In this document: in pieces, positions 17,427 through 48,553 of the stretch
How positions within the stretch are numbered: position 1 is the stretch's first letter
How the letters are laid out: the number at the start of each line of letters is the position of its first letter
Source: Gonatopus flavifemur
Lineage: Eukaryota; Arthropoda; Insecta; Hymenoptera; Dryinidae
Assembly (NCBI GenBank): GCA_018340375.1
Contig: JAFFJZ010000001.1
Coordinates: forward strand, 49,530,001-49,594,000
DNA length: 64,000 nt
Direction of reading: 5' to 3'
Made by a program: the position numbers and the translations under genes
Notes under the pieces: generated by a model
Told to the model about the DNA's origin: nothing
Databases searched by the model: none
Seen by the model: the letters and a program-made list of their open reading frames with translations, nothing else

Positions 17427-20055
17427 TAATCATCAATCTGGCTATGTTTCTTACTGCAAAAATTTCTTAACAGTTTATTATTAACAGATAACATTTAATA
17501 TCGATTACAATCAATCACACTTCACGAGGGAATGAAAAACTTTTCTTGTCGATTTATATCTACAATCTGCCGGTAGTTGGTGTATAATAAATTTCACAGA
17601 TCCCCCAATCCGTCACGGATTTTCAGTGAAATAAATAATACCCACGTTGATAACGAATAATCGCTCTCGCAGGAAAATTGGAAAATGATAGTTGTAATTC
17701 GGAAGTACGCGATGTTGGCGAGTATTATAATACAATTAATAAATTACCCACTTTCCAATTTTCCTTGTTATAATTAGTTTAAATTAAAAGAGAAGACCGA
17801 AGTCCGCTTTATCTTTTATTTAATATTCATCATACTAATTATAACTGTTGATTGTAATTACAGCATGTTCAATTGCGCCTTCCCACGCAACTCATAGAGT
17901 ATAATAAACCTTTATAATCAGTTAATTATATTAAAACTGATGACCACTTAATTTACATTAAAATACAAATAAATGTCACGTGAATTCATCAAGTACATGA
18001 AAATAAAAAGTCAGCTTTCCCAGAACTGCAGCATATACGAAACAAACACCGTATCTGCGTTGATAGATCAATTGATTGAGGACAAATGTTGGAATCAATG
18101 CTCTCAAAGAAGAATTGCAAATGCGTTTTATTTTCCTTGAACCATGTTCTTCGTATTTGCGACGAAGTGCATGAGACAAATAAAATGAGGAAATGCTTCA
18201 GAGATAAGCTTAATTGTGTCCAACTGAACAACAGCGGAGATCTCCAACGTGTTTGAACGAGTTTGCAAGCTTGAGAGCTATCTTCAATTCGGAGTAGCTC
18301 TTGAAATCTACTAAATATCCTCGAACTCATCAGGAGAGGATAAAATGAAAGCATCAATCGAATCTTTTGCTTTGTTTCATGAACATCAGAATTCGTTGAA
18401 ACAATAACCATTATCGATACAATGAGTTCTGAAACTTTTATTGCATATTTACGCACTTAAATAATCGAGGCTGTTAAATGTTGCTGAAGTTTTAATCGTT
18501 CATTGAAACGAATAAAGTATTCAAATAACGAAATACTCAGTTGTCAAAGACACAAAATCTTGCAGTATTTTCTTTCAGCAATGTTTCCAGTTTCGAAGAG
18601 TTAATTTGGAAAGTTGAATCATTAATCAAGTTAAGTTCATTCATCAGATTCTGTAGATTTAAATTTTCGTTTCGGACTTCATCAACATGGTTGTTAGAAC
18701 GTCTGAAATGATTTGTAGAATTGAACTTTTCTCGTCGCATATCAAGATAGTCCATCGGTATAAATCAGTTGCGTTACTGACATTGCATCTTTTCCCGACG
18801 AAGTTATATTGATATTGGAATGAATACCAGGAGGGATACAATTTTACTAATCTCATTGAAGTCTGAATCGTTTATCAAAACAACATATGCACGAAAAAAC
18901 ATGACAGCTGTAAAAAGGACAACTATTTTCCAAACTGCTATAGCTAAATTTGTACTGCTGAAGGAAAACTTTTAGCCGTATCAGTGAAGCTTCTGCTAAT
19001 TTTGTTGTAATAATTGAAGTTCAGCTGATTCAGCTAAAAATTTCTCTTCTCGTCAATTAAATATGAGTCAATACATCAAGTGTTCAAACACTACACGAAG
19101 AAAAAATTAATTATCCAAATTTTCATTGATTTCGAAACGTCACTTTTGGAAAAAGTATAAATTCGAAAGGAAAAAATTCAAACACTGGATTTCAATACCC
19201 TGCTTCAAGAATCTCATTGATTCCGAAACGGAAAACTGATTCAAACCCACTGAGAATCAATTTTTGAAATGGGTTTGAATCGGATTTCTGCATTTTCAAT
19301 TGTTTCAACAAACGAATTCAGTTTTCATTCTCACTGTCGGAATAATGAAAAAAGTCAACGAATTGTTATTGAAATCCAGTATACGAATTTTTGTTCAAAT
19401 TGATGCTCCGTCCAAAACTGACATACTAGATGAAGGAAATTTGGATGATTTATTTTTTATGTGTAGCTACTCTCATAGAATAGTTATTTTCAAATAAAAC
19501 ATGTCAGAATCCACGCGAAACAGTAACTAGAAATGTGGATTTTTCCATACTTTCCAGAATTCATTTTGATTCACAATTTAGACTTCAAAAACATTATCAT
19601 TGTTGACAAATATGAGGATTTTCAGTGCATTTACTGAGAAGATATGAATATATTATGGGAATCTTTAGGATTCAAATATTTTCAGTTTCAATTTCTTCTC
19701 CATGCTTGAAAAAGATACATTGTTTCGATAGATCTCGGATTTATCATCTCAGCGCTTAACTCCTGTTGTTTTCTAAATTTTCGATTCAATGAGAGATAAA
19801 TTTTCAATGTTTACATTTGTTTCCTTGGAAGACCATCGAATACATATACAATTCTCGAGTGACTGACATTTTTGTCAATAATTGTTGCTTTGTTGGAGAG
19901 AAAGCATCATTTTTATGGTACTTTCGAGTGTTGCATCATTGGTTCGAAGAGAGCTAAACAGATACAATGGTGAAGATTTCTGAAGGGCATTTCATAATTT
20001 TGAACTCCCTAGATTCCTTTCTATGTACCAAAATGTTGGAAGATGAGTCATTTGC

Positions 20056-20112
20056 ATCACTTTGAGGAGCAGAAGAGAAATTGTATCCTCTTCTTTTACC
20101 CCTCAAAGTGAT
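20056..20112. repeat. Perfect-stem hairpin near the dacapo intron 5' end
   Basis: ATCACTTTGAGG at the left and CCTCAAAGTGAT at the right pair over 12 bp. AGAAGAG / CTCTTCT continues the stem inward. It lies about 280 nt downstream of the donor in transcript orientation. Confidence 0.6.
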
Positions 20113-20395
20113 AGAAATTTTGTATGTAGGGGGAAAGGAGGTTTGCATTCCAACTCGAATCTTCTGGGAATTGTATGGATCACAATTTTGCATCCTTTGG
20201 CACGATCGATTTCATCGATACGAAACTTGTTGTAATTATAACAAGCAATATGATTCTAATCTGAAATTTTTTCAAAGACTTGGACAATTTTTGTACATAC
20301 AATCTGAAATGAATGCAACACATTCGATTTCATACAGAATTGAAAGTAAGTTATCACGAAAAGTATCAATATAGACATCAGCTAAACGATCTTAC

Positions 20396-21122
20396 CGGTT
20401 ATCGAAGATTGTTTTCTCGGAGGAACAGGTATTACAGGGGTAGTGGGTTGTTCGACGACGAATATTTTCTTCCTCGATTCCACGAAGCTTTGCGACTCGT
20501 TCGTATCTCCTTCATTGGAGGCGAGGACTCGTTTACCCATTTCCGGAACCCTAGATTCCTGTGGCGGTGTTCTTTCCGCCGATTCGATGGTTATTGGCAT
20601 CGATATCATGGTCGTGGTAGCCGTGGCGGTCATCATCATGGTCGGCGTTGACGACGACGATGATCTCGTCTTGGCCGTCGCCAAGGTTATTGTGTTTTCA
20701 AACAATCCATTACAATGATTATTTCTTAAATTTTTACTGGAATTGTATGTGGTGTTCGTGGGGGAAGTCTCCCGATTGAACGACTGTTTTCTCGGCGTGC
20801 TGGGAGCATGTTTTCTGATATACGGCATACCGCGAAGAGCGTAGGGCTCGGGAACGACGTCTTGATCGGTCACAGGTTCCCATTCGTACCTTGAATTGGC
20901 TTTTGGTATTTCAAGTTGAAAATCGAATCCCCATCTTTCAGCGTCCAGCAAAGATTGAGCGCGAAGTTCTCGTTCCGCCAAAGCTCGCGCCGCAGCGTGA
21001 TCGACAGGTCCAAAAAGATCTCTTCGTACTCGAGCCAGGGCAGCCCTATTTGGGGCAGCTCTGCCCCCGGCCGGTCGCCCTACGTCTGGCATCATCGCCG
21101 GATTCAATACACGTGCACTCAT
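20396..21122 (-). CDS. dap: dacapo/CDKN1 Cip/Kip CDK inhibitor, coding exon 1 (242 residues)
   Basis: This exon encodes most of the insect p21/p27/p57-type inhibitor, which binds and inhibits cyclin-CDK2 in the nucleus and enforces G1 exit. The CDI domain occupies about residues 33-81: RRDLFGPVDH is the cyclin-docking element, then a linker helix, then WGFDF (64-68) and Y-E-W (79-81) of the CDK-binding hairpin. PYALRGMPY (93-101) could supply the tyrosine that blocks the ATP pocket. The rest is low-complexity and probably disordered, with CDK-type sites S/T-P at 109 (TPRK), 120, 185 and 229. Start: first in-frame ATG, with an in-frame stop about 60 nt upstream. The exon ends at a GTAAGA donor, and with exon 2 the protein is 275 residues. 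The long plus-strand frames opposite it are shadows. Confidence 0.95.
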
Positions 21123-21860
21123 CTCTTCCTCTTTTTTCTTCGAGTCTTTATTCAGTTGTCGAAAAACAATGATTATTCACAACGTTATCGTGTCACAACG
21201 CCATACGATCTTTAGGTTAGAAATCCTCCTACGATCGAATGAAAATGATAGGCACAAAAAATTTGGCATTGGCCAACTCGGGTATGTTTTTTTTATTACT
21301 TTGAGATTTATTCTAAGAAACCCACGTTGTCGTTGGGCGTTGAAATTCTCGCGGGCACGAAAAAGAAACACAAACCGGCAACGTTGTGTGTTTCAAGTTG
21401 GTAGAGAAGAGGCGCGATTCACCGAATTTCGAATAATAATGGCCGACTGCACATGTGTGTATATATACACATATATCGATGTCTGTATAAATGTATTCGT
21501 ATATAAATCTCGTATCACGTAAACTTGAGAGAAAAAATAGTTAAAATATATACAAAAGATGCACTCTTTGTATATAAACGTAAATAACGACGGGAGGAAC
21601 TTTTAACACTTGGAAATATCCATTGCACAACACTTTGAAACGAAAGATATAATCCACTTGGCAACTTAAGAAGAGTCGGAGAAGCAACTTTCCTTCCCCG
21701 TCTTGCTCACTCGCAGTCGTCTTTCCCTTTCCCTCTACCGTAGATGGATTCTCCGCAGCAGTAGCCCGCGGCAGAGACTCTTACTAGAGATCTGGCAACA
21801 TCGGCCGCACTTGCGCTGCGCGTGAGTAGTTTTTTCACTCTTTCTCTCCTTTATAACTCC
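21123..21860 (-). promoter_or_regulatory. Probable 5'UTR and core promoter of dacapo
   Basis: GC content rises here compared with the neighbourhood. A TATAAA lies on the minus strand at 21855-21850, which would place initiation near 21825 and give a leader of about 700 nt if unspliced. No clear initiator is seen, so the start point is a guess. Confidence 0.3.
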
Positions 21861-22216
21861 CAATCAAAGATACATGTAAAAATACATGTATATTTCTTTT
21901 GATTTTGTTGAACCAATGAGAATTTCATTCAGTTGGAAACAAGATAATTCCACCTTGTATCATAACTTGAAATTTTACAACAGGTGCATCACGATACAAA
22001 CTATATAGTTCTGATTTCCTTTCGAAATTCACTTGACATGGAAAAATTCACTGACCGAATATGTAGTCCGATACAAAAAATAATTGCACACGGCCCTACT
22101 ATGTATATCCTTTTCTATCATTCAACTTATATGCACAAAGGTCACGTATACGATGATAAAAGAGCAAAAGTCGCTTGGAATCGTTAATAACAATGTCTAA
22201 GTCACATTAGTACCAC

Positions 22217-22480
22217 CTTCCCGCCAAATACAGAACTGTCAAGACACGCGTTCGCGTGGCTCTCGATAGCAAACAACCACACGATTGCGCAGCATACAAC
22301 CGTCGCGTTTCTGGTTTTGCCTTTCCTTTTTATTTCTCTTCTTTCACTCTACTTTTTGAACGTGGCGAGTTGCGCGAAAACGCGTTATGCACGTGTGAAG
22401 CGCTCTCTAGCGACTGAAGTGTATCCTCTTTGCTGCAAGCAACTCGAGTCTTGGTTCGAACATTCGTAACTTCCCGCCAA
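22217..22480. promoter_or_regulatory. Cluster of E2F-like sites
   Basis: Three motifs fit the E2F/DP consensus (TTTSSCGC or inverse): CTTCCCGCCAAA at 22217-22228, GCGCGAAA at 22372-22379 and CTTCCCGCCAA at 22470-22480. They sit in the CpG-richer stretch 5' of dacapo, possibly a shared region with a divergent plus-strand transcript. Confidence 0.4.
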
Positions 22481-22799
22481 TTCTCGGTATTCTTCGGTCT
22501 CCGCCTCCTCAACCCCTTCTTTCTTCCCCTTACCGCCCTTTCGCCCTCGATCGTCGTATTCTCGCTCGCACGCTCGCTTCTACTCTCGGCTCTTTGTCTA
22601 ACGTGTTGGGAATTGAAACCGAAATAACCGCCATTCGTTGTGTATATAGTCTCCTCGACCCAAGTTGCTCAACCAAGTGCATGGACGTACGATATATACG
22701 AATAAAAAAATAAAATATATATACATGCATGGTACGTATGTGAGGTTTTTATGTGTATCTATATGTATACATATATATAGTACGTTGTACAGTTATTGG

Positions 22800-23122
22800 C
22801 CCCCTCTTTCGTCTTCATCACACAAATGAGTCGAATACTGATCATTCTCGATCTCTGATGCTCAAACTTTAGACGAGATACGAATACGAGAACTTGTTTT
22901 GTGTTTAGACTGTGTCACCTAGGTCTTGATTTTTTCTGCTCCCTCTGGCCCCTTTCATCAACTCCGTATCATTGTGTCCATTATGCGGATAGACGTCAAT
23001 CAATTTTCATCCATTAGACTATGTAAGAAACACCAGAGTACCAGACGATCCAATGTAAGGTGAAATAACCTTTCGTTTGGTTTTTTTGATTCATCGTGTT
23101 TCTTTTCTTTTGTGTTCTAGAA
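22800..23122. other. Intergenic or intron, nothing recognised
   Basis: No ORF or TIR. A pyrimidine-rich tract precedes the candidate acceptor at 23121-23122. Confidence 0.3.
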
Positions 23123-35827: not shown

Positions 35828-36492
35828 ATCATCATGAAATAATCAGTCTTATGAATGGTTTGATGAAATCCTCAAACTCTGTCTATATTAACCGCTAAAC
35901 GCTTGATTTCTACATATCTACGACTACCCTTATCTTGTATAATTTGCTTCATAATATAACTCAATCTAGGTCTAACTTTGCAAGTTTTACCATTCATTTT
36001 TTCTTCTAATATTGTTTTCAATAAACTATCATGCCTTAATGTGGGTCCTATCAGATTACTTCTTTTCACGACATATTTCAAAAGACTTCTTTCTTCATGT
36101 ACCTTCTCAAGTACTTCTTCATTTTTTACTTTCTCTATCCACTTTATTCTAAGCATCCTTCTATAACACCACATTTCAACAGCTCCGAGTCTTCGTTGGT
36201 CCGGTTTTCCAATTGTCCATGTTCCGCAACCATATAATGTTGTGCTCCAAACGTAACTCTTCAAGAATTTCTTTCTTACTGCTAAGCTAATATTCTTTGA
36301 GCATGGTAACTGTTCCTTTTGGTGGAAACCCTGTTTTCCTTGTGCTATTCTTGCTCTTATATCTCTTTCGCTTTCACCGTTTTCTGTAATCATGTTTCCT
36401 AGATATTTAAATTCTTCCACTTGCTGAATTGTCTCTGCATCTATTTTGATTTTCGTTCTTCTTGATGTTTTCGCTGTTGTACAAATCATGAA
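35828..36492 (-). mobile_element. 5'-truncated RTE-like non-LTR retrotransposon with 13-bp TSD
   Basis: A minus-strand fragment coding for the C-terminal end of a LINE reverse-transcriptase polyprotein is flanked by identical 13-bp repeats TCCTTGCGCGAAC (35815-35827 and 36493-36505). The 3' end reads CATGATGAT, a short ATG-type tandem tail of the kind RTE elements use instead of poly(A), and it follows the coding region almost immediately. Only about 665 bp of the element arrived, typical of incomplete reverse transcription. Confidence 0.85.
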
Positions 36493-36513
36493 TCCTTGCG
36501 CGAACTCACACTA
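35872..36513 (-). pseudogene. Reverse-transcriptase C-terminal fragment
   Basis: The frame reads through phrases typical of insect LINE proteins: EEFKYLGNMI, YGCGTWTI, RRLGAVEMWCYRRMLRI, NEEVLEKV, ERSLLKYV and RHDSLLKTILE. This is the thumb and post-RT region; the endonuclease and the catalytic palm with its YXDD motif are absent because of 5' truncation. The frame ends at a TGA where related proteins usually carry Trp before GFH, and GFHQTIHK follows in frame after the stop, so the stop looks like a mutation. No start codon of its own; not functional. Confidence 0.9.
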
Positions 36514-42918: not shown

Positions 42919-43325
42919 TGGAGCCCTTTTTTGATAATTATTGATTTTATCGTAACAAATAGGCCCATTTTTTTAAGCGAAAATCGGTGTTTTTACTTCT
43001 AAGGGTCACAAAAAATTGAAAAATCGAAAAAAAACTCCCAAGGTTACCTGGTCATTTATGTGAGGAAGTAGTATACTAAATTTTAAAAGAAACGATCGAT
43101 TAGATTTTGATTTACACCGTACACCAGCTTCACCGGGCGCCTTTGAAGACTTGCTACCATAGAGCCAATTATCAATATTTTTGTTTAAAAAATTCAGGAA
43201 ATATTCTTCACATATTGTATTATGATGTCAATATTAATTGAATAAATTTGTATTACCTGAAGCGTTTAAAAAAATTCTTAAAATCAGGACTTTTTCTCGC
43301 CGAATTAATGTTCCTACCCCCCTTC

Positions 43326-43904
43326 CTTAAAAGAACCAATAAAATTTCCAAGTGTTCCAATAAAAATATTTCGACACTCTATATTCCAATCAATTATATT
43401 TATTTAAACTTATTATCAAAGACCGTATTCATGCAATTCATCAAATTATTTTTACTTCATCCAAAAAAGTGTGGAACAAAATAATCCAAAGCATTTGTCA
43501 ATTATAGATAAATATATTATATTTTTCATTACAAAATTCAGTATAGTATTCTTAAAGTATAAGTATTATAAATATCGTTCATCGACAATCATACATATTG
43601 CACACCTTCCTTATGTTGTATAATATAAATAAAACTATTAATAAAACATTCATAATTCTCAAATTGAATGACAAAAAATTAGATCATTACCTTTTCGATC
43701 GAAATAGAAAAGATTACATAAAATTTAAATTATTCGGACGTATAAAACAGTAATGATCATTCTGACTAGAATTTTTTATCATCAAAATTCTCCACTTCTA
43801 TCATTATAGTCGCAATTTTATCATTCACAGTCTTTTTTGACTCAACATGAAGTGAAAACCTTCTCGTGTATAAATATAATCAAAAATAAATATTGAATGT
43901 ATCA
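43326..43904. other. Downstream of the Kip paralogue, possible 3'UTR
   Basis: AT-rich; no canonical AATAAA on the minus strand was spotted close to the stop. No other feature. Confidence 0.3.
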
Positions 43905-44126
43905 TCATGACACAATAGAGGTTTCAGAATTAAGTTCAGTCCTTTTATCTTCATACTTATTTTTATGCACTTCATTCTCCGCGTGTTTGGTTGGGCTATG
44001 TTTAGCCTTGTCATTCGCTTCTGTCTCCGGTGGCACCTCATTCCCATCTTTATCCACTTTCACCCAATCATAATTTCCAGGCAGAGGTTCTTCTTTCTCG
44101 AAATCGAAATTCCATCTTCTTTTCGC
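43905..44126 (-). CDS. Second Cip/Kip inhibitor, exon 3 (CDK-binding half of the CDI domain)
   Basis: Opens after acceptor ATTAAAATTAG in phase 0 and reads AKRRWNFDFEKEEPLPGNYDW, then an acidic, Lys/Glu-rich tail ending SETSIVS and TGA. WNFDF is identical to the p27Kip1 CDK-binding core, and PLPGNYDW matches its PLEGKYEW-type turn. After YDW there is no FYY/PY-type segment, so the tyrosine that plugs the CDK ATP pocket in p27 appears to be missing. HSPTKH (residues 113-118) contains an S-P-x-K CDK site. There is no PIP box or RKR cluster. Joined to exons 1 and 2 the protein is 143 residues, about half the size of dacapo. Confidence 0.85.
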   Translation of the reverse strand, partial: AKRRWNFDFEKEEPLPGNYDWVKVDKDGNEVPPETEANDKAKHSPTKHAENEVHKNKYEDKRTELNSETSIVS

Positions 44127-44189
44127 CTAATTTTAATATTTTTCGTGTAATTAACAATTTGAAAATTTATTCAAAAATTATTTGTTCAC
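44127..44189 (-). other. 63-nt intron inside the CDI domain
   Basis: Donor GAG|GTGAAC, acceptor AAAATTAG|GCG, phase 0. Unspliced, the frame stops after three more codons (VNK). An AATAAA lies inside at 44171-44166 (minus strand). The splice is inferred from exact restoration of the Kip-family E-E-A...R-W-N-F-D-F alignment. Confidence 0.8.
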
Positions 44190-44376
44190 CTCTTCTTGTT
44201 TCCGACGAGTTTCCTCGTAGAAACGATTTACCACATTATCCTCGACACCTGGTTCTAATTCATGTTGACCCTTTTCATTGTTCTCCTCGTCATGAAACAG
44301 TCTTCTTCGAACGTTTCGAAGTTTGATGCATTCATGATGCACGTCGTCAGTGGTATCTTGCATTCTCAAGCGGGCT
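44190..44376 (-). CDS. Second Cip/Kip inhibitor, exon 2 (cyclin-binding half of the CDI domain)
   Basis: Follows acceptor TTTTGATTTCCAG and contributes 62 codons, from ARLRMQDTTDD to RRKQEE. RNVRRRLFHDE carries the cyclin-docking R-x-L-F motif (RNLFG in p27), but GPVDH is replaced by HDEEN. A charged, probably helical linker (VEDNVVNRFYEETRRKQEE) leads to WNFDF in exon 3; from the L of RRLF to that Trp is 42 positions against 29 in p27 and in the dacapo of this window. An internal ATG (44363-44361, MQDTTDD) is an alternative start that leaves the CDI intact. Predicted role: a nuclear cyclin-CDK binding protein of the Kip family. The degree of inhibition cannot be told from sequence. Confidence 0.82.
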
Positions 44377-44483
44377 CTGGAAATCAAAATGAGAGATTAA
44401 TCGAAACCAATGTAAAGACTTTGTATGAATTGAATTGTAAGAGGAAAAATAAAAGTGCCGCGGGTGATTGAGGTATTTTGTAC

Positions 44484-44506
44484 CCTGGTTGTGCAGTATT
44501 CGTCAT
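44484..44506 (-). CDS. Second Cip/Kip inhibitor, proposed exon 1 (start)
   Basis: ATGACGAATACTGCACAACC gives MTNTAQP plus two bases of codon 8 before donor CCAGG|GTACAA. The phase (2) matches the acceptor of exon 2 exactly, leaving a 107-nt intron (44377-44483). The donor is mediocre, so the true start may instead be the ATG at 44363 in exon 2 with this piece as leader. A seven-codon upstream frame counting the stop (ATG at 44523) ends in TGA overlapping this ATG. A TATATAA lies about 50 nt upstream (44556-44550, minus). Confidence 0.45.
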
Positions 44507-44556: not shown

Positions 44557-45956
44557 TTACAATTCAACGAAACTTGGAATGTTATTCAATTCAATTGAAT
44601 AAATGTCGAATATACAGGTCTTAGTGAATTCTTCGAATTAGTTTTATGCGCATAGTGCTTACATCGAATTGTTTTCCCATCTGTACGAACCTGTTGTCTA
44701 AATACTACATGACAATATAAGAGATTCTACTATTCGAGTAACAACTATTCAATCATTCATCAAATTTTTAAAGGCAGTTTTTGTTTTTTAGGAGCGAATG
44801 TGAATGGATAAGGAGAGAAAATGATAATAAGAAAAGAATAAAAAAAAGTGCATAAAAACTTAGGAACGAAGAAGAGAATAAAGAAAGTTGTCATATTGTC
44901 GAGTAATATGCCGTTGAACGGATGTATCGGAATGCATTTCACTTCCGGCATAAACATGTACATATATATGTATGTATACTTTTGAAGATGTATCGATAAC
45001 AGATTCAACGTGCCACATAGACATGCGTACATAAAAAAAATAAAACATCAAATCCTTCATGAATATTTCATTTCAAATATTTCATTCCCGCCGGACTGTG
45101 AAGAAGCTGGAGAAATTCATATGATTTCAACCTTCGATTTTTATATTATTTACATTTCATTTTTCAAAATATGAAAACCAGGGATTCGAAATCCATACTT
45201 TTATATTACGACGCTGATTTGATTTTTAATCACAACGCATTTGAAACATAATAGAATAATGTTGAAAAAAAAACAACAATTTAAGTCAACTGGAACGTAC
45301 TCTGAAAACATTTTATTATTCTTTACTCTTGATAACTTCGAAAATGTCCGTTCAATCTTTATATTATTATTCTGGTGAAGTTCGTTCCTTCTCTATTGTT
45401 TTCTGCTTTGTGATTTCCCTTCTGTAGTGAATATATTAATTCTTGTGACAAAGTATCTACTTTGTCTGGAGACTTTAATGCTTGATCGGCGAAGAATCAA
45501 CTTGATATGCTTATAAGAGGATTGTACAAAGAATATTGCACAGAAAAGTGCACCTGTCGTTTCTTGAGGATTATAATCCATGAATCCGAAGCAAGATTTA
45601 TCGCTGCTTTGTCTCATGTTACGTGAATATATTTTTTATATGCGTCTTTCAAGTTTCTTATTTCTTATCAATTTTGTTTTCTTTTTACGAAATAATCTCA
45701 GTTCATCCCTTTTGAAAAACTGATTTCTTTGATTCGAATTTAGCTATTTTTACAAATTTATCAATGCATGTTTATGAACTTTCAGTGCGGTTGCATCTTC
45801 GTGAACTATAACAAGAATGATCGTGTCAAAATATTGTGGAACATTTGCTCTGATTCCGTTGCGTCTGAATTTTAAATCTGATTGAAAGTTAGCCTTGTCC
45901 GTCATGTTGAAATTTGTTTTTGGAGCTCACTTTCTGTTCATAAAATGCTACCGATC
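44557..45956. other. No gene recognised upstream of the Kip paralogue
   Basis: AT-rich with chance frames only. It could hold promoter elements of the paralogue. Confidence 0.3.
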
Positions 45957-47741: not shown

Positions 47742-48553
47742 ATTATTATAATGTATTATTAATAATAATTGAATGATCATTTTCTCGTACAAGACGTGAA
47801 TCAGAGGAATATATAGTTTATATTTGATGAATAATATCCCAAAGTTGAAAGATGAATCCAGAAATATTAAACGATCGACAAATCGCAGTCTTTCATGCAA
47901 TGATTTCACTTGATAAATCACAAATTTGTATCATGAAATTGTCAACCGACATATATAACGGAATGTATCTACTCACTCTTGTGTTTTCAAATTTTGCATA
48001 CCCTTCCTTTCCAAATTTCAATGGCAGTTGAATTAAAATCAACGAGGTTTCGTGAACAGAAACACAATTTTGAAACTTTTCTTGTCATCGGAGAACATCC
48101 AGGCAGTATAACGCTAACCGGTTGAAGGTTATTCGATCGATATAAGCAGACAGCTTTGTCGGGGGTGTAGACCCCAACTGAGATAGGGGTACTTTTATGC
48201 GCGCGCAACCTTTACATAGTTCACTACATATAACATACATTTCGATTTATTGAAATGTACTATTGCGATATTCGATTGTTTTCGATATATATTCAATTTG
48301 AATGAGAATAGAAAATACATTCCTTCGCTTTCCGAACTTGAACTGCGTCAATTTCATTCAAGTCACTATCTCATAATTCACATTTCTGTGTTGAAGTCTC
48401 CTTATATTTACAGTGGAATAGAGATGTTTAAGGTTATACATATAATTTATAGTGGACAAATTTGGCAAAAAAATCCCCCCCCAAGTCTGTTTGTTCAGTT
48501 TAGAATTTCTTTGAATGTACCTGAATTCCAATGAAAATTTTTTATCTCGATCT

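Follow-up and report, generated by a model that had tools for sequence, protein, structure and literature searches.

The window considered here, a stretch of 64,000 nt from the hymenopteran Gonatopus flavifemur, contains the Cip/Kip gene dacapo and, upstream of it, two short open frames that read like a further member of the family once they are joined. The question raised by this locus is whether the two frames form a second Cip/Kip gene and, if so, how old that gene is and how it would act on cyclin-CDK. According to a passage of PMC3784567, there is just one Cip/Kip in flies.

Gene model and Cip/Kip membership

The gene dacapo is located on the minus strand at 20382..21122 and encodes 246 aa, with the CDI domain in one open frame (RDLFGPV, 27-residue spacing, WGFDF and VPEPY). 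The assignment draws on the open frame, on Hymenoptera homologues, several of which are named dacapo, and on a genome CDI match. The frame extends 18 codons 5' of the first ATG without a stop (20382-21176), and the GC content is 41-43% over 20001-23000, compared to 34% for the whole window. The short Cip/Kip gene, referred to as Kip2 in the following, comprises 43905-44376 plus a probable exon further upstream. Both genes lie on the same strand, with dacapo about 23 kb downstream, as the sequence-only reading had proposed.

Exon 2 of Kip2 (44190..44376, minus strand, 187 nt) is an open frame that starts with ARLRMQ and runs through the RRLF cyclin docking motif, an acidic linker and a helix region to RRKQEE. 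Its acceptor, TTTCCAG/A ahead of 44376, yields a split codon that is also seen in homologues. Exon 3 (43905..44126, minus strand, 222 nt including the stop) carries the Pfam CDI match, reads AKRRWNFDFEKEEPLPGNYDW and continues in a charged tail to SIVS and the stop codon. Between them lies a GT-AG intron of 63 nt in phase 0 (44127..44189, minus strand) with in-frame stops. The motif order RxLF, helix, WNFDF, PLxGxYxW was indeed visible on the minus strand as RRLF (44306), the helix region, WNFDF (44114) and PLPGNYDW; in the 143-aa model, RRLF occupies residues 32-35 and WNFDF residues 75-79. The proposed joining of the frames across the 63-nt intron is echoed by homologues. P0036 and P0037 carry extra residues exactly at the exon 2/3 junction, and in 8 of the 121 retrieved proteins among the matches listed WNFDF falls within the first 25 residues, so that these eight look as if begun in or near the intron. 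Taken together, the insertions and the early WNFDF indicate the same junction.

The profile check that had been suggested for the 143-residue spliced protein resulted in a Pfam CDI match of 48.3 bits (cut-off 25) with E=1.1e-12. For exon 3 by itself E was 8.8e-10, and exon 2 by itself gave no Pfam CDI match; the CDI assignment is thus independent of splicing. In a sequence search of the PDB, Kip2 matched p27 chains, with 2.1e-7 as the best value, and RxLF lies upstream of W-N-F-D-F, the arrangement that marks Cip/Kip proteins. When the 636-Mb genome was searched for CDI in six frames, with introns ignored and 10 candidates scored, two loci emerged, dacapo with 53.5 bits and Kip2 with 36 bits, the latter also above the cut-off. 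The Kip2 match was flagged with two stops, both of which sit where the match overruns the exon by 9 nt into the intron. Judged by its sequence, Kip2 is a second Cip/Kip gene beside dacapo, and its product is predicted to bind and inhibit cyclin-CDK.

The first exon is attributed to a conserved MLAARH(R) exon outside the window (C1:49607435-49607454, window-equivalent 77435-77454, minus strand); no such exon was found within the window. It is located 33,058 nt 5' of exon 2, which sets the length of the first intron, and has a donor AG/GTGAGA of fitting phase, giving a product of 142 aa. Among the matches listed from the one-sequence and profile searches, 14 of 121 homologue rows start with ML[AV]ARH; we take these to represent bees, vespids, ants, braconids, one ichneumonid and one cynipid, plus one unnamed row. 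The pattern ML[AVTS][AVTS]R[HQNY] occurs once in 124 kb on both strands, compared to 0.22 on average in 50 base shuffles; MLAARH itself appeared in 0 of 200 base shuffles. A degenerate exon-plus-donor pattern has four exact matches genome-wide; the remaining three, on C354 and C382, do not differ from one another and give MLVASHR. The exon 1 proposed earlier, MTNTAQPG at 44484..44506 on the minus strand, was probably misplaced. It has a weak donor (GTACAA), no homologue read begins in this way, and the conserved exon lies 33 kb upstream; it is at most an unsupported alternative to the start exon. The internal Met of RMQD is a possible alternative translation start. In summary, Kip2 is probably a three-exon gene, with exon 1 and the exon 2/3 junction assigned from homology and splice rules.

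Another first exon that is conserved, M(R/K)D(L/I/T)..., starts 7 of the 121 rows among the matches listed (vespids, Leptopilina and two ants). The two short first exons, MLAARHR and M(R/K)D(L/I/T)xxx, seem to be alternatives in Hymenoptera Kip2 and occur in several families each. Both join at the same codon, and Vespula has both (P0161, P0162). The only MKDL frame in the window, at 45060, was rejected as an alternative first exon as it continues MKDLMFYFF, and a stricter M(R/K)D(L/I/T) pattern had no match in the window or the 60 kb beyond. Mini-exon candidates with phase-2 donors at 47999, 47157 and 45941 are unlike any homologue start and were rejected as well. A single AATAAA in 43300-43907, at 43404 and about 500 nt beyond the stop, is uninformative. 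Elsewhere in the window, a 212-codon open frame on the minus strand (35875-36510, EFKYLGNMITENG...) has a putative likeness to the end of the reverse transcriptase of non-LTR retrotransposons. It had no Pfam match in a check of other long ORFs, of which 0 of 6 matched.

Orthologues and diagnostic anatomy

Of the 45 candidates in the one-sequence search, 40 proteins had E<=1. Every named one belongs to Hymenoptera, and most are called uncharacterized or hypothetical, some cyclin-dependent kinase inhibitor. Odynerus P0001 shares 58% identity with the whole Kip2 protein over 74% of the query. Orthologues are predicted for bees, wasps and ants as well as for parasitoids, two examples being Apis LOC725144 and Bombus "cyclin-dependent kinase inhibitor 2". 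Linkage was assessed from the best 120 of 144 dacapo homologues and, for Kip2, from the one-sequence matches together with the best 120 of 524 homologues in the profile search. The sizes of the longest contig, read by hand, are the same for Kip2 and dacapo in 28 of the 30 species named for both among the matches listed, Orussus included, and equal size was taken to mean that both genes share a contig. The two exceptions are Hylaeus anthracinus, where the sizes differ yet the genes are LOC128887622 and LOC128887619, and Microctonus aethiopoides, where two different assemblies are involved. Neighbouring tags were observed in Odynerus (KPH14_003003/003004), Cardiocondyla (014774/014773), Vollenhovia (LOC105562182/183) and Ampulex (005737/005739), while the tags in Mischocyttarus are 29 apart. 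Among the matches listed, dacapo but no Kip2 is named for the chalcids Ceratosolen, Phymastichus, Copidosoma, Trichogramma and Eretmocerus and for Cephus, Neodiprion and Diprion. Kip2 may have been lost or have diverged in these lineages, which counts against wide retention.

The window gene shares the MLAARH(R) first exon, the intron before AK-x-x-WNFDF and the linkage to dacapo with the Hymenoptera group around LOC725144. As far as can be read from these features, it is orthologous to Apis LOC725144 and not private to the species. Sequence type, intron position and dacapo linkage are common to LOC725144, the Bombus protein and Odynerus KPH14_003003, the first exon to part of them; the window gene differs in its own tail and its 33-kb first intron. 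The earlier description as "hidden" and "new" holds insofar as the literature searched, with most subscription journals outside its reach, gave no description of a second insect Kip, but orthologues are already predicted in many Hymenoptera. The second gene is present in sequence databases and seems to be unexplained there. No functional study of the Hymenoptera Kip2 proteins was found in the same literature. The passages of PMC5289437 on the honey bee report measurements of dacapo and do not mention the second gene.

In the window, Kip2 and dacapo have the CDI domain, RxLF, the W-x-F-D-F hairpin, strand and neighbourhood in common; domain, RxLF and hairpin also link Kip2 with Drosophila dacapo as described in papers. 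The CDI of dacapo is free of introns whereas that of Kip2 is split by one. Hymenoptera dacapo further differs in LFGPV, the 27-residue spacing, WGFDF, the tyrosine of VPEPY and a long tail that carries Ser/Thr-Pro sites; Kip2 reads RRLFHDE, a spacing of 40 and WNFDF where dacapo has RDLFGPV, 27 and WGFDF. These differences were counted in 121 short-Kip rows, some of them fragments, and 120 dacapo rows from the matches listed. LFG is present in 0/121 short Kips vs. 119/120 dacapo rows, and WNFDF in 119/121 vs. 1/120. Any Ser/Thr-Pro site occurs in 47 of 121 short Kips (median 0) and in all 120 dacapo rows (median 6); the window Kip2 has one. Among chosen rows, the distance from RxLF to W is 29-58 in 51 short Kips and 27 in 22/22 dacapo rows, the latter being also the distance in the p27 fragment. 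An earlier count with a looser motif, in which some rows were misanchored (e.g. RDLN), put the distance at 27 for 100 of 109 dacapo rows, with scattered values in short Kips, and is superseded by the chosen rows. The short-Kip linker is acidic, with a mean of 38% D/E and 7% K/R (n=104).

A further position that was compared is that of the p27-type tyrosine, which sits in a 3-10 helix 28 residues past W. Among the matches listed, a Tyr at W+24..W+34 is present in 4 of 117 short Kips (three more were too short and two lacked the motif) vs. 121/121 dacapo rows. The window Kip2 has none in this interval, and PEFYY of p27 aligns with PEPY of dacapo. The counterpart of Tyr74 in the 121 short Kips among the matches listed is Tyr in 87, Trp in 29 and Phe in 2, and was not found in 3. 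Compared to human p27Kip1, Kip2 has RxLF, WNFDF and PL-x-G-x-Y-x-W in the same order, together with a predicted helix and hairpin, but has neither a Tyr88/89 counterpart nor LFGPVDH; its acidic linker is longer and its C-terminus short. An AlphaFold model of the Apis orthologue (75 rows; mean pLDDT 66.7, pTM 0.35) shows a helix at residues 44-73 followed by a hairpin, with block mean pLDDT of 81-89 over residues 51-100. Foldseek against the PDB gave no match at E<=0.001 (best 0.41). Chains of p27 or p21 take ranks 1-4 of the 108 matches, with 6p8f at E 0.41, probability 0.94 and an rmsd of 1.6 over 42 columns.

Age of the pair

Short Kips are not confined to Hymenoptera. The best 120 of 524 profile matches include 15 named insects from outside this order, i.e. 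Periplaneta, Blattella, Diploptera, Lycorma, Aricia, Leptidea, Colias, Vanessa, Nymphalis, Parnassius, Ignelater, Carabus, Aquatica, Culicoides and Bacillus rossius, which we take to represent Blattodea, Hemiptera, Lepidoptera, Coleoptera, Diptera and Phasmatodea. Among these matches listed, 0/15 have LFG and 0/15 a Tyr at W+24..W+34. As the matches were ranked by Kip2 likeness and candidates had to share short words with Kip2, traits common to the rows of other orders are partly selected. Dacapo-type proteins of the same species may be among the other 404 of the 524 matches. The earlier term "divergent paralogue" is apt in that Kip2 is a second Cip/Kip. It undersells the gene, because its WNFDF and PLPGxYxW are nearer to p27 than is WGFDF of dacapo, and similar short Kips are listed for other orders. 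The butterfly short Kips P0206, P0213, P0215, P0223, P0232 and P0237 have in common a W-I-G-(M/V/I) stretch that follows the hairpin. They terminate in a basic (R/K)R(K/R)(I/L)xF, possibly a second cyclin-docking site. Further invertebrate second Cip/Kip copies are known from other phyla, cestode cki-2 and C. elegans cki-2 in passages and a cited title of PMC12693960, and are likened here by description.

A tree was calculated from 74 chosen rows (71 of the 241 retrieved proteins, the two window proteins and the p27 fragment) over 60 columns. In the free tree, a single clade (100/100) holds the 22 dacapo rows, excludes Kip2 and is separate from every short Kip, and p27 is placed beside Carabus among the short Kips and not with dacapo, with unsettled bootstrap and long branches. 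Each constrained tree beat the free tree by 9 to 21 log-units, and AU tests rejected none of three groupings: the short Kips as one group (p 0.897), dacapo joined with Hymenoptera Kip2 (p 0.72) and Hymenoptera Kip2 alone (p 0.707). Because the free search missed better trees and none of the groupings was rejected, dating the duplication by tree was abandoned.

Both dacapo and p27 have LFGPV, the 27-residue spacing and PE-x-Y, so that the short form is not easily the ancestor of dacapo. The case for an old Kip split would be built on these characters, with polarity set by human p27 only. Tentatively, and at somewhat less than even odds, two Cip/Kip genes may be ancestral in insects: dacapo and an old short Kip lineage. 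The latter would be represented in Hymenoptera plus six further orders but missing from Drosophila, would have lost the ATP-site plug and its tyrosine switch and would act as a constitutive cyclin-CDK clamp or assembly factor. A tandem duplication of dacapo in Hymenoptera only, with one copy diverging and the short Kips of other orders being their own single Kip, appears unlikely. It would fit the linkage of the pair in 28/30 species among the matches listed, the AU test that keeps dacapo and Hymenoptera Kip2 as one side of a branch, and the free-tree position of p27 with short Kips, from which dacapo could be the derived form; moreover, the dacapo rows compared are those of Hymenoptera. On the other hand, dacapo would need to regain the three characters common to p27, neither LFG nor the Tyr is present in any of the 15 short Kips of other orders, and this grouping gains 9.4 log-units vs. 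20.9 for all short Kips together, each measured only against the free tree.

Predicted action on cyclin-CDK

In the mechanism proposed for Kip2, RRLF would dock on the hydrophobic patch of the cyclin, the helix together with the acidic linker would span from cyclin to kinase, and the WNFDF hairpin would insert in the CDK N-lobe. The ATP site would remain unplugged, as Kip2 lacks the Tyr88-type 3-10 plug. From the missing plug, fixed partial clamp behaviour is expected; Kip2 would be a constitutive partial inhibitor or assembly clamp and not a tyrosine-switched full off-switch, while dacapo would keep the classical tyrosine switch. The scarce Ser/Thr-Pro sites suggest that Kip2 may be turned over by a route other than the Thr187 pathway of p27.

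That Kip2 acts as a full CDK inhibitor, p27-like despite the missing tyrosine and partly redundant with dacapo, is conceivable but rather doubtful. RRLF and WNFDF are retained, and a passage of PMC6459857 reports that p27 phosphorylated on Tyr88 leaves only 20% residual Cdk2 activity (43% with Tyr74 plus Tyr88); the 20% value was counted in favor of the clamp reading as well. Conversely, the absence of the Tyr from 113 of 117 short-Kip rows among the matches listed and the longer acidic linker suggest a different regime. According to a passage of PMC9279356, nearly all vertebrate Cip/Kips have Tyr88, the exceptions including p21 of non-mammalian tetrapods; that some vertebrate Kips also lack it was counted against the clamp reading. 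A decaying pseudogene or chance open frames, as the AT-rich surroundings might suggest, would be a very improbable explanation in view of the intact frames, the presence of splice sites and of exon 1, the identity to the Odynerus orthologue and the CDI match. We consider it likely that Kip2 is a real three-exon 142-aa Cip/Kip gene, an orthologue of Apis LOC725144 that shows linkage with dacapo in Hymenoptera and is part of a short-Kip lineage also listed for other orders, and that it would act as a constitutive partial inhibitor or assembly clamp.

A part of a butterfly oogenesis paper (PMC3654919) counts dacapo among genes without clear insect orthologue outside Drosophila or unreported in Lepidoptera; in contrast to this count, short Kips are predicted in butterflies. 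If the proposed reading is true, a Kip without tyrosine switch would alter models of cell-cycle exit and endocycling in bees, ants and wasps, and the contribution of the ATP-site plug would find a natural test in it.
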